Assembly (NCBI RefSeq): GCF_014197855.1
Contig: NZ_JACIGJ010000001.1
Coordinates: 248,001-312,000 of the forward strand
From: Roseospira marina
GTDB taxonomy: Bacteria > Pseudomonadota > Alphaproteobacteria > Rhodospirillales > Rhodospirillaceae
DNA: 64,000 nucleotides
Direction of reading: 5' to 3'
Shown: in pieces, positions 58,957 through 62,628 of the stretch
Position numbering within the stretch: the first letter of the stretch is position 1
How the letters are laid out: every line of letters starts with the position of its first letter
Translations under genes and position numbers: made by a program
Notes under the pieces: model-generated
What the model was told of the DNA's origin: nothing
Database searches by the model: none
Seen by the model: only the letters and a program-made list of their open reading frames with translations

Positions 58957-59912
58957 TTGCGTGCCGCTGTGACGCGCTCCCGGTGGATGATGTACAGCCC
59001 CGCCACCGTCAGCAGCGCGACGCCGGCCCAGGTTGTCGGGGCCGGGAAGTCCCCAAAGACGACATACCCCAGAACGGTCGCGTACAGGATGTAGCTGTAG
59101 TCGAACGGCGCGATCAGCGACGCGGGCGCGAGGCTGAAGGCCCGGACGAGGCAGAATTGCGCCAGGCCGCCCACGGCGCCGATCGCGATCAGGCCCAGGG
59201 CCTGCATCGGGGTCGGTGGCACCCACGCCCACAGGATCAGGGGCAGCGCGAGCAGCAGCATGATGACAGCGTTGGTCACCGCGACCACGTAGGACGAGAC
59301 GGTCTTGCCGGCGCGCCGCAGGCTGATGAACCAGAGCGAATAGCTCAGGACGCCGAGCCCTCCCCACAGCGCCCCAATGCCGAACACCGCGCCCCCCGGC
59401 TGGAGCACGATCAGCACCCCCACGAATCCGAGAAGGACGGCGCTCCAGCGGTGCACGCCGACCGGTTCTTTCAACAGGGGAACAGACAGCGCGGTCACGA
59501 TCAGCGGGGCTGCGAACAGAATGGCCGCGACCTCCACCAGGGGGAGGGTGCGCCACGCCATCAGGAAGCTGACCAGGGCCCCCGCGCCCAGAAGGCCGGC
59601 GACCAGAAGCGTGACTTCCGCGCCTCGGATCCGCCCCCAGGCACCCGGGCCGGCCAGACGCAGCGCCAGCGGCACCAGGATGACCAGCGCGGCCGCAGCG
59701 CGGAAGAACAGGATCTGACCAACCGGAAAATGTGGCGTCAGGGCCTTGGCCAGCGTGTCCATGACGGAGAACAGAGCGACGGCCGCCAGCATGAACAGGA
59801 TGCCGGCAAACGGCCGGTCGTCTGTGCCCTTGGCGCTGTCCTCGCGCGCGGCCGGGCCGGCGGTGGCCGGGCCGGGACCCCGTGATGGCTCGGCAGGACG
59901 CGGCGATGTCAT
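58935..59912 (-). CDS. EamA/DMT-family transporter
   Basis: The 325-residue protein has a Pro/Ala-rich, charged cytoplasmic N-terminus (1-35) and about ten membrane helices in two EamA repeats (FAGILFMLAAVALFSVMDTLAKAL begins the first; LWGGLGVLSYSLWFISLRRAG begins the second). AAGGA eight bases before the ATG fixes the start. It is a paralogue of the transporter at 5285 in family only. The substrate is unknown. Its final codons overlap a hairpin that terminates glgP from the other side. Confidence 0.88.
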   Translation of the reverse strand: MTSPRPAEPSRGPGPATAGPAAREDSAKGTDDRPFAGILFMLAAVALFSVMDTLAKALTPHFPVGQILFFRAAAALVILVPLALRLAGPGAWGRIRGAEVTLLVAGLLGAGALVSFLMAWRTLPLVEVAAILFAAPLIVTALSVPLLKEPVGVHRWSAVLLGFVGVLIVLQPGGAVFGIGALWGGLGVLSYSLWFISLRRAGKTVSSYVVAVTNAVIMLLLALPLILWAWVPPTPMQALGLIAIGAVGGLAQFCLVRAFSLAPASLIAPFDYSYILYATVLGYVVFGDFPAPTTWAGVALLTVAGLYIIHRERVTAARKRAADPS

Positions 59913-60270
59913 GGGTGTATTCCTTGTAACCGGCGGGGGGCAGGGGCGCCCCACGCCTCCCTTACCGGGCCCCGTTCGGCCGGGGCAAGGTGAAACTCCG
60001 GTAACATGGACACTCCAGGGGTGGCGCTCCGATGGCGGGGCCTCCATATCAACGATGACGTTCGGCGCGGGTCCGATCCGGTTCGATAGTGACTCTGTTC
60101 GATGCAGGGACGGCAAACTGCGTTCATGACGTCAATCGTGATCTGAAACGATGCTCATCATGTTTCTATGAGGTCGGCGGCGGTTCGGGAAAATCCATAT
60201 GCGTGTGTGGACTTCGGTCTTAGTGATTTGACGCAAGTCCTAACGTTCGCCTGACTTTTTCCGATCGTCC

Positions 60271-60298
60271 TTGATGTTTTTGTTGGCTTCTGCATAAT
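60271..60298 (+). promoter_or_regulatory. Promoter of the unknown gene at 60435
   Basis: TTGATG (60271-60276) and CATAAT (60293-60298) are 16 bases apart. Transcription would begin near 60305, which rules out an in-frame ATG at 60297 as the start and gives a leader of about 130 bases. The remaining bases from 59913 to 60270 hold no gene that I can support. Confidence 0.5.
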
Positions 60299-60311
60299 GA
60301 GCGCGCGTTTG

Positions 60312-60377
60312 AGGTCGGGTTTCGACCTGAATCGTAGAAAACACTATCGTTCGATAGATGCTTCGTTCCTTCGAAGG
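60312..60377 (+). promoter_or_regulatory. Leader with three successive palindromes
   Basis: Between promoter and gene are AGGTCG, 5-base loop, CGACCT (60312-60328); the perfect 14-base palindrome CTATCGTTCGATAG (60343-60356); and CCTTCGAAGG (60368-60377). A strong Shine-Dalgarno-like GAAGGGAGGAGG (60373-60384) follows but has no ATG, GTG or TTG at a useful distance. It could be a cis-regulatory RNA or a set of operators. Confidence 0.4.
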
Positions 60378-60434
60378 GAGGAGGCGCTGGCAGCGAACGA
60401 CGGTAGGTTCACGGTCCGGATGAAAGCGGGAACC

Positions 60435-60794
60435 ATGAAAACGGGTGCGTTGAAGCGGGGCGCCGAAGCGCTCACAACGTCGAACGCTGGAGTTGGGTCG
60501 CGGCATGTGACCGCCGGCGGACATGGGATGACCGACCGTCAGGACAATGGCGGCCATGTGCTCGGTGCGTTTCGCAATGATGTGGATGCGTTCGGTGGTA
60601 ACGCCGAACCGGCCATGGTGGATGTGCTGAACGAGCCGATCGTTCGCACGGTCATGCGTCGGGACGGTGTCGCCATGGACTCCCTGCAAGCCATTTTGCG
60701 CGACGCGGAACGCTCGGTCACGCGCCGGCCGGATGGGGCGCCCGATGGGGCTCAGGTCGCGATGGCCGTGGAGACCGCTGTCAAGAACGGGTGA
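60435..60794 (+). CDS. Hypothetical protein
   Basis: The 119-residue product is of unknown family. Residues 1-65 are polar and Gly-rich; the C-terminal half includes VDVLNEPIVRTVMRRDGVAMDSLQAILRDAERS, which looks like a short helical domain. GCGGGAACC precedes the ATG; a second in-frame ATG is at 60420. A promoter upstream and a strong intrinsic terminator 47 bases past the stop support a real single-gene transcript. No signal peptide or membrane helix is seen. Confidence 0.55.
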   Translation: MKTGALKRGAEALTTSNAGVGSRHVTAGGHGMTDRQDNGGHVLGAFRNDVDAFGGNAEPAMVDVLNEPIVRTVMRRDGVAMDSLQAILRDAERSVTRRPDGAPDGAQVAMAVETAVKNG

Positions 60795-60841
60795 ACGCTG
60801 GACGTGGCGTCGTAGACGCGCGTGAGGCAAACCCACGCGAT

Positions 60842-60877
60842 AAGGGGGGCGGCCGTCGCATCGGCGCGCCCCTTTTT
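60842..60877 (+). terminator. Intrinsic terminator after the unknown gene
   Basis: A GC-rich, slightly imperfect stem (AAGGGG then GCG and GCCG on the left; CGGCGCGCCCC on the right) ends in five T (60873-60877). It lies 47 bases past the stop codon at 60794 and separates this gene from pepA. Confidence 0.75.
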
Positions 60878-61050
60878 CGTGGGGGTGGTGTACCGGAATG
60901 GCGCGCCCCCCTTTCCCCCGGCGTCGCGGCTTTGTAGACTTTGCCACTCGGCCATCCAGTCTCGCGGGCCGGATGCGGCCCAGGTCGGCGCGCGGCCGAG
61001 CCGGCGCGGGACGGCGCTCCGACCTGTTCGTGTCACCGAAGGAACCCTCC

Positions 61051-62628
61051 ATGAAACTCTCGTTCGCCAAGCCTGATATTCCCGCCAAGGGCGCCCTGGT
61101 CGTCGGCGTGTTCGACGGCAAGACGCTGGGGGCCACTGCCACCACGCTCGACGATCTGACCGGTGGCCAGCTCAGCCGCGCCCTGGCGAGCGCCCGGTTC
61201 AGCGGTGAGAGCGGCAAGACGTTGGTGGTTCCCGCGCCTCACGGTGTGACCCTGGACCGGATCGTTCTGGTCGGGCTTGGGGCGCCGGACGCCGTAACGG
61301 CCACCACCCTGGAAACCATGGGCGGGGTCGCCGTCTCGACCCTGGGGGGACTGGGCGACGAGACGGCCGCGCTGGCCGTGGATCTGCCAGAGGGGGCGAG
61401 CCTGACGGCGGCGGAGGCGGCCAGCCACGCGGCCTTCGGCGCGCATCTCAGTGCGTTCCGCTTCGACAAGTACCGCACCAAGGAAACGGCGGACGAGAAG
61501 CCCGCCCTGACCGCGCTGACCCTCCTGTGCGACGACCCGGCCGGTGCAGAGACGGCCTTTGAGCCCGCCAAGGCCTTGGCGGAGGGCGTGCTGCTGACCC
61601 GCCGGCTGGTCAGCGAGCCGGCCAACGTGATCTACCCGGAAACGTTCTGCGACACGGTGGCGGACCTTGCCGATCTCGGTATTGCCGTCGAAGTGCTCGA
61701 CGAGGCCAAGATGCGCAAGCTGGGCATGGGCGCGCTGCTCGGTGTGGCCCAGGGCTCTGCGCGCCCGCCGCGGCTTCTGGTGATGGAATACCGGGGCGCG
61801 AAGGACAAGAAGGCGCCGCCGGTCGCGTTCGTCGGCAAGGGTGTCACCTTCGATTCCGGCGGCATCAGCATCAAGCCGGCCGCCGGCATGGAAGACATGA
61901 AGTGGGACATGGGCGGGGCCGGCGTGGTCGCCGGTCTCATGAAGGCCCTGGCGGGCCGCAAGGCGCGCGCCAACGTGGTCGGTATCTGCGGTCTGGTGGA
62001 GAACATGCCGTCCGGTACCGCGCAGCGCCCAGGCGACGTGGTGCACACCATGTCGGGTCAGACGGTCGAGGTTATCAATACCGACGCCGAGGGCCGGCTC
62101 GTGCTCGCCGATGCGCTCTGGTACTGCCAGGACCGGTTCAAGCCGACCCATATCGTCGATCTTGCCACCCTGACCGGCGCCATCATCATCAGCTTGGGCA
62201 GTGAGCACGCCGGCCTGTTCTCCAATGACGATGCCCTGGCCGGGGCCATCACCGCGGCCGGTGTGTCGGTCGGGGAGAAGTGCTGGCGCCTGCCGCTGGC
62301 CGATGCCTACGACAAGATCATCAAGTCGGATATCGCCGACATGAAGAACACGGGCAACCGCGAGGCCGGGTCGATCACCGCCGCGCAGTTCCTGCAGCGG
62401 TTCATCAAAGACACCCCCTGGGCGCACATCGATATCGCCGGGGTCACGTGGTCGAAGAAGGATGCGCCGACGGTGCCGAAGGGTGGCACCGCCTTCGGTG
62501 TGCGCCTGCTGGACCGCTTCGTGCGCGATGTGATTGAAAGCGGCGTCCAGGACAACACCGACGACAAGTCAGGCAAGGGCAAGGACAAGGAAAAGTCCGC
62601 GAAGGGCAAGGGCAGTAAGAAGAAGTAG
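61051..62628 (+). CDS. pepA: Leucyl aminopeptidase with Lys-rich tail
   Basis: The 525-residue M17 aminopeptidase removes N-terminal residues from peptides as a cytoplasmic hexamer with two metal ions; it can also bind DNA at Xer sites. The metal and catalytic region is present: VGKGVTFDSGGISIKPAAGMEDMKWDMGGAGVV and the signature NTDAEGRLVLADAL. AAGGA seven bases upstream fixes the start. The last 25 residues are almost only Lys, Gly, Asp and Ser (KGKDKEKSAKGKGSKKK), outside the conserved fold, and could be a nucleic acid-binding tail. Confidence 0.96.
   Translation: MKLSFAKPDIPAKGALVVGVFDGKTLGATATTLDDLTGGQLSRALASARFSGESGKTLVVPAPHGVTLDRIVLVGLGAPDAVTATTLETMGGVAVSTLGGLGDETAALAVDLPEGASLTAAEAASHAAFGAHLSAFRFDKYRTKETADEKPALTALTLLCDDPAGAETAFEPAKALAEGVLLTRRLVSEPANVIYPETFCDTVADLADLGIAVEVLDEAKMRKLGMGALLGVAQGSARPPRLLVMEYRGAKDKKAPPVAFVGKGVTFDSGGISIKPAAGMEDMKWDMGGAGVVAGLMKALAGRKARANVVGICGLVENMPSGTAQRPGDVVHTMSGQTVEVINTDAEGRLVLADALWYCQDRFKPTHIVDLATLTGAIIISLGSEHAGLFSNDDALAGAITAAGVSVGEKCWRLPLADAYDKIIKSDIADMKNTGNREAGSITAAQFLQRFIKDTPWAHIDIAGVTWSKKDAPTVPKGGTAFGVRLLDRFVRDVIESGVQDNTDDKSGKGKDKEKSAKGKGSKKK

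Follow-up and report, generated by a model that had tools for sequence, protein, structure and literature searches.

A conserved leader with a displaced Shine-Dalgarno-like tract, possibly a cis-acting RNA, precedes a small-protein gene in Rhodospira and Roseospira

The window, by which we mean the whole 64,000-nt stretch of DNA analysed (G000:C1:248001-312000), lies within the 4.6-Mb draft genome of a purple non-sulfur alphaproteobacterium of the Rhodospira/Roseospira group. Between an EamA transporter gene upstream (minus strand) and a leucyl-aminopeptidase (Peptidase_M17) gene downstream it contains a gene for a small protein, preceded by a leader and followed by a terminator. The features of this locus, in window positions, are as follows.

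60270-60298, plus strand: conserved promoter, CTTG..TTTTT; 16 of 29 columns invariant in four species, matched by a promoter scan, its pattern present in four of the six genus genomes.
60305-60336, plus strand: P1, a predicted 5'-terminal hairpin whose sequence varies between species (fold of -14.2 kcal/mol, z -2.9 in the window).
60337-60385, plus strand: conserved leader core, AAACAnnATsGTTCGwTnGrnGsTkC...CCTTCnAAGGrAGGA; 30 of 49 columns invariant in four species.
60350-60364, plus strand: predicted 5' strand of helix P2 in its consensus register, from the RNAalifold consensus of alignment A4 and alignment-dependent.
60368-60381, plus strand: predicted hairpin P3, CCUUC-GAAG-GGAGG, which carries the SD-like tract; five pairs possible in 4/4 sequences.
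60374-60384, plus strand: Shine-Dalgarno (SD)-like tract AAGGGAGGAGG; AAGGRAGGA in all four aligned species, degenerate in G001.
60390-60401, plus strand: predicted 3' strand of P2, CRAAYGA in alignment A4, from the RNAalifold consensus.
60420-60794, plus strand: small protein of 124 aa (ATG at 60420) or 119 aa (ATG at 60435), with counterparts in all five congeners.
60579-60725, plus strand: C-terminal helical domain of ~45 aa, from an unnamed alphaproteobacterial family found in 40 of 289 genomes of the class.
60838-60877, plus strand: intrinsic terminator; 60838-60882 folds at -27.1 kcal/mol (z -3.4), with TTTTT at 60873-60877.

The locus was compared across a genus set of six genomes, G000 itself and five Rhodospira/Roseospira congeners (G001-G005). 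A query of the named collection with the single protein gave no match, and a search with a protein alignment found six loci, all of them in Rhodospira/Roseospira; the named records that carry the protein are Roseospira navarrensis, Rhodospira trueperi, Roseospira visakhapatnamensis and two Rhodospira MAGs, and the congeners were taken as these, being G004, G002, G001, and G003 with G005, respectively. In G004, G002 and G001 the small-protein gene has EamA beside it; the 6.4-kb stretch examined in G003 showed no EamA, and no pepA was seen in any of the stretches examined in relatives. The leader and the gene therefore remain linked despite a changing context.

The initial annotation had proposed a 119-residue protein of unknown family and had suggested that 60435-60794 be checked for coding conservation, which is indeed found; dN/dS is ~0.2 (0.29/1.30 against G004, or ~0.22; 0.46/2.02 against G003 and 0.42/2.07 against G002, these last two resting on high dS), which indicates purifying selection on the coding part. 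The ATG at 60435 is conserved, but so is an in-frame ATG 15 nt upstream at 60420, kept in four species, which would give 124 residues. The two in-frame ATGs lie within a 15-nt near-repeat, ATGAAAGCGGGAACC / ATGAAAACGGGTGCG (60420-60434 and 60435-60449), and both are kept in the four species; in G001 the protein start corresponds to the second ATG in the DNA alignment and to the first in the protein alignment.

The family was rightly called unknown, as the whole protein has no match in Pfam or NCBIfam and the family of its C-terminal domain is unnamed. The count of 40 genomes for this domain was made at E<=0.01, includes the window's own genome and contains a few weak members; the motif is EPxLxxLLxDPIVxxVMxRDGVxxxxLxxLI and 23 of the 29 open frames listed are shorter than 200 codons. 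When 17 members were compared with Pfam, NCBIfam, PHROGs and PDB sequences there were scattered weak matches, the best at E 0.035, none of them convincing. AlphaFold predicts short helices at high confidence over residues 66-101 (block-mean pLDDT 85-94 over residues 61-100); confidence in the N-terminal half is low (mean pLDDT 70), and a comparison of the predicted fold with the PDB gave a single match at E 6.2, which is of no use. A paralogue of the domain (L058, G000:C1:323416-323562, minus strand) lies ~11 kb past the window, and Rhodospira trueperi has a second copy of the small protein at another locus (L075 / L054), where the leader model has no match. At L091 and L093, in two genomes of one genus, the domain forms part of a longer open frame, close to its C-terminal end, and the sequence ahead of it (...KREILAFWASDACAVDSRP...) is similar in the two; the longer frame of L091 has no Pfam match. 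Inspection by eye of the neighbours at 16 of the 29 listed loci revealed nothing in common apart from L083, L094 and L103, in three genomes of one genus, where the domain gene lies near a common upstream neighbour, with a 21-residue stretch in L094 and L103 that is alike in L083.

The gene would seem to be transcribed as a unit of its own. The promoter claimed in the initial annotation, TTGATG-N16-CATAAT at 60271-60298 (-35 TTGATG at 60271-60276, -10 CATAAT at 60293-60298), is borne out both by a sigma-70-type scan of 59000-62000, in which it is the sole match (shuffles mean 0.2), and by its conservation, the alignment of G000, G004, G003 and G002 containing an island CTTGnnnTTTTTn10GCATA; transcription would be expected to start near 60305. 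The good terminator that was claimed is there also, since none of 200 shuffles folds as well as 60838-60882, and a consensus terminator scan missed it; that same scan reported no terminator-like site on the plus strand of 59000-62000. No T-run longer than three occurs in 60305-60419; by these two criteria the leader shows no terminator such as an attenuator would have.

The four-species alignment of the upstream region (G000, G004, G003 and G002) shows two islands of conservation, the promoter and the 49-nt leader core. Three 60-nt blocks just before the promoter contain 6, 4 and 5 invariant columns (7-10%); the promoter has 16/29, the P1 stretch (60299-60336) 3/38, the core 30/49, the interval between core and start 9/34 and the start-codon region 24/30. 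Searched through the six genus genomes, the core pattern (<=3 mismatches) has one match each in four of them, at the locus, and the promoter pattern (<=1 mismatch) likewise matches the locus in four of the six, with no match in the reversed controls of either; the G005 contig ends 22 nt before its match, so its leader is not assessable in these counts, and as the patterns were derived from the alignment the locus matches arise by construction, the informative part being that nothing is found elsewhere save one stray 1-mismatch promoter match in G003. The SD hairpin was also considered as a genome-wide motif and was rejected, CCTTCNAAGGGAG (<=1 mismatch) having 54 matches against 59 in the reversed control over the six genomes (matches/control for G000 to G005: 14/11, 6/13, 9/7, 7/7, 13/5 and 5/16); the four exact copies inspected outside the locus (L022, L023, L025 and L027) are without the rest of the core.

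The leader appears to be confined to the genus. The covariance search proposed in the initial annotation was run over 73 genomes of the family with a model built from the four leaders; it recovers those four, as it must by construction, and the remaining 69 genomes give one match at E 0.87, which is also all that the 67 family genomes outside the genus yield under stricter filters. At 13 further loci (four with the G001/G005 gene, three paralogues and six distant homologues) there was no match to the model. With filters off, a weak leader remnant without the SD tract can be seen at the expected place in G001 (7.7 bits, E 0.11, in 1.2 kb), which suggests that the leader device is dispensable for some orthologues. 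The window has no match to any Rfam family at gathering score, and a limited literature search, which took in published sources in part, turned up no account of this leader.

A conserved stretch in front of a gene may of course be coding itself, and the frame is open from 60297 in the window, and through the conserved block in G004 and G002 as well, so that the real gene might be a 165-aa ORF. However, the sole in-frame ATG upstream of 60420, that of 60297, shares bases with the -10 box (P1 contains an in-frame TTG, at 60309), and in G003, where the spacing from SD box to ATG is 56 nt as against 52 nt in G000, the frame is shifted and there are stops on either side of the block (by eye). When the 81 nt before the ATG at 60420 are read as codons in the frame of the gene (27 codons, G000 and G004, ungapped) pS is 0.28 and pN 0.25, a small sample of 21 differences, compared with 0.62 and 0.24 in the coding sequence (112 codons); the leader is therefore constrained at sites that are free to vary in coding DNA. 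By this comparison a coding leader is disfavoured, and we regard it as highly improbable; the leader looks to be conserved as nucleic acid and not as protein.

The most distinctive element of the core is the strong SD-like tract, which the initial annotation correctly described as having no start codon nearby. In the window ATG, GTG and TTG are missing from its ordinary reach and the nearest conserved AUG is at 60420; the tract precedes this and the AUG at 60435 by 35 and 50 nt, which is too distant for ordinary initiation. Around it ATGAAAGCGGGA is the same in the four species save for a last base G in G004, and ATGAAAGCGGG is common to all four. The leader might nevertheless be an ordinary one, with a constitutive promoter and a strong SD that serves, unregulated, a non-AUG or species-specific start, as the tract of G004 is followed at once by an in-frame ATG and the window has an in-frame CTG at 60387; against this, G003 has a nearby GTG that is out of frame, G002 has no ATG, GTG, TTG or CTG in reach (both by eye), and 30 invariant columns in 49 exceed what a simple SD would need, which makes this reading quite unlikely. 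What follows the tract thus differs among species, so that conservation of the tract is not accompanied by that of a start codon in ordinary reach. Nor does any start codon common to the four species follow it that could open a conserved short upstream ORF (by eye), as a leader-peptide attenuator would call for.

The folding of the leader was approached from single sequences and from alignments. The three palindromes of the initial annotation are present in the window (AGGTCG/CGACCT at 60312-60328, CTATCGTTCGATAG at 60344-60357 and CCTTCGAAGG at 60368-60377) and also extend as longer imperfect arms; CTATCGTTCGATAG, however, is not preserved as a palindrome in relatives, and the single-sequence fold of 60300-60440 has a z of only -1.5, with 13 of 200 shuffles as good. 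For scale, of 200 pieces of 81 nt spaced evenly along the window, 10% have a z of -1.64 or below. As the single-sequence fold goes just mildly beyond shuffles, the argument from the palindromes alone is weak. With 500 shuffles, and in the order G000, G004, G003, G002 and G001, the whole leaders give z of -2.1, -1.5, -1.1, -1.3 and -0.7 and the stretches from core to ATG -1.6, -1.8, -3.2, -1.7 and -2.0; for P1 the p values are 0.012, 0.022, 0.72, 0.052 and 0.18, the z outside the window being -2.7 in G004, +0.6 in G003, -1.8 in G002 and -0.9 in G001.

In the RNAalifold consensus P2 is a helix that encloses P3 and pairs the GUUCGUU stretch with CRAAYGA. This consensus fold exceeds column shuffles (z -3.6, p 0.005, 1000 shuffles), and a sub-block of it chosen post hoc reaches z -4.9. 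Four MAFFT settings were compared. For the four sequences, P2 appears under two of them (z -3.6 and -3.8) and is lost under the other two, which keep P3 (z about -0.8); when G001 is added, z is -3.4, -2.0, -4.2 and -3.3, and P2 appears under three settings. With alignment A3 the z is -1.3, alignment A6 was excluded from the model with one P2 strand off by a base, and when G000 is left out the consensus has z -1.9 and a different fold. In the window's own minimum-energy fold P2 is paired in another register, and an alignment-free comparison of the duplex between core and pre-ATG stretch with shuffles gives p of 0.066 for G000, 0.080 for G004, 0.004 for G003, 0.634 for G002 and 0.382 for G001. 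When the partners are slid along each other, the share of paired cells falls from 92.6% to 36-59%, as is expected of a structure derived from the same sequences. P3 shows a single change, from U-G to U-A, among the four sequences, and over the fold as a whole 2 of 17 pairs are changed on both sides, which 240 of 500 shuffles also reach, there being only four sequences. On these models P2 may form in the cell.

RNA thermometers of the ROSE and FourU types contain a pyrimidine strand that can pair with the SD tract, and in this they resemble the present leader, where the anti-SD CCUUC adjoins the tract; the idea that the leader is a thermometer which masks the SD at low temperature was therefore considered. 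The predicted opening of the tract between 20 and 50 C nevertheless barely changes in three of the four leaders (in G002 it rises from 0.03 to 0.22), so that there is no clear predicted temperature switch, there is no Rfam match at gathering score, and the distance from SD to AUG is unusual for such elements. In the predicted ensemble of G003 the tract is unpaired at all temperatures. The nearly flat opening and the open tract of G003 speak against a thermometer, and also against a simple hiding of the SD in every species; disfavoured by the predicted melting, a thermometer is extremely improbable.

In a rival explanation, which leaves the RNA out of account, the conserved block just past the promoter works as a DNA operator: a dedicated regulator, which might be the encoded protein itself, would bind there, and any RNA folding would be incidental. 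Strong conservation beside a conserved promoter, in one copy per genome in four of six, is what an operator would show, and the RNA covariation is no better than in shuffles. The block does, however, extend into the SD-like tract and lies ~35-80 nt past the presumed start of transcription, its GTTCGTT part is not palindromic in relatives and P3 can form in 4/4 sequences; we consider an operator rather unlikely.

Taken together, the find of the initial annotation is a genuine conserved unit. That it is self-contained is seen in its own promoter and terminator and in the linkage of leader and gene in four species; that it is regulated, as was also claimed, is a prediction from the leader. For the cis-acting RNA that was suggested as a possibility, the conservation as nucleic acid, P3 in all four sequences and a consensus fold that beats shuffles in some alignments stand on one side, and covariation equal to shuffles and the open tract of G003 on the other; it is the likeliest reading.

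In its specific form we would give this reading about an even chance: the gene would form a transcription unit by itself, and its cis-acting 5' leader, specific to the lineage, would tune translation, perhaps by means of a ribosome standby hairpin. This reading is consistent with the conservation, the non-coding signature, the restriction to one gene in six genomes and the pairing potential of P3. RNA polymerase would start near 60305 at the conserved promoter and produce a leader of ~115 nt, the 5' end of which could form P1; the conserved block AAACA...GUUCGUU... would then fold back and so place the purine-rich SD-like tract in P3. The tract, at 35 and 50 nt from the AUGs at 60420 and 60435, is most likely a standby or loading site for the ribosome, and P2 and P3 would set its accessibility and in this way control the translation of the small protein.

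As a cis-acting structured 5' leader it is akin to the ribosomal-protein leaders and riboswitches of Rfam, and differs in having no gathering-score match and in preceding a gene for an unnamed small protein. Standby sites in structured 5'-UTRs are an established concept, in the part of the account drawn on here (PMC3936740). As far as that part goes, the two are alike in having a structured leader and ribosome binding well upstream of the start, whereas here the SD-like tract itself is in a hairpin and is conserved between species, and its role is predicted from sequence. A more ambitious proposal, which we hold to be unlikely, is that such leaders make up a class of cis-regulatory RNA specific to this genus of purple bacteria; a conserved hairpin would present an SD-like tract, 35-50 nt before the real start, as a standby site or decoy for ribosomes, possibly with feedback by the encoded helical protein, whose domain of an unnamed family is spread through the Alphaproteobacteria.

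The locus offers a well-bounded and testable case of a conserved leader whose ribosome-binding tract is displaced. It also draws attention to a small protein domain which is present in 40 of the 289 alphaproteobacterial genomes sampled and is without a convincing match in the databases.
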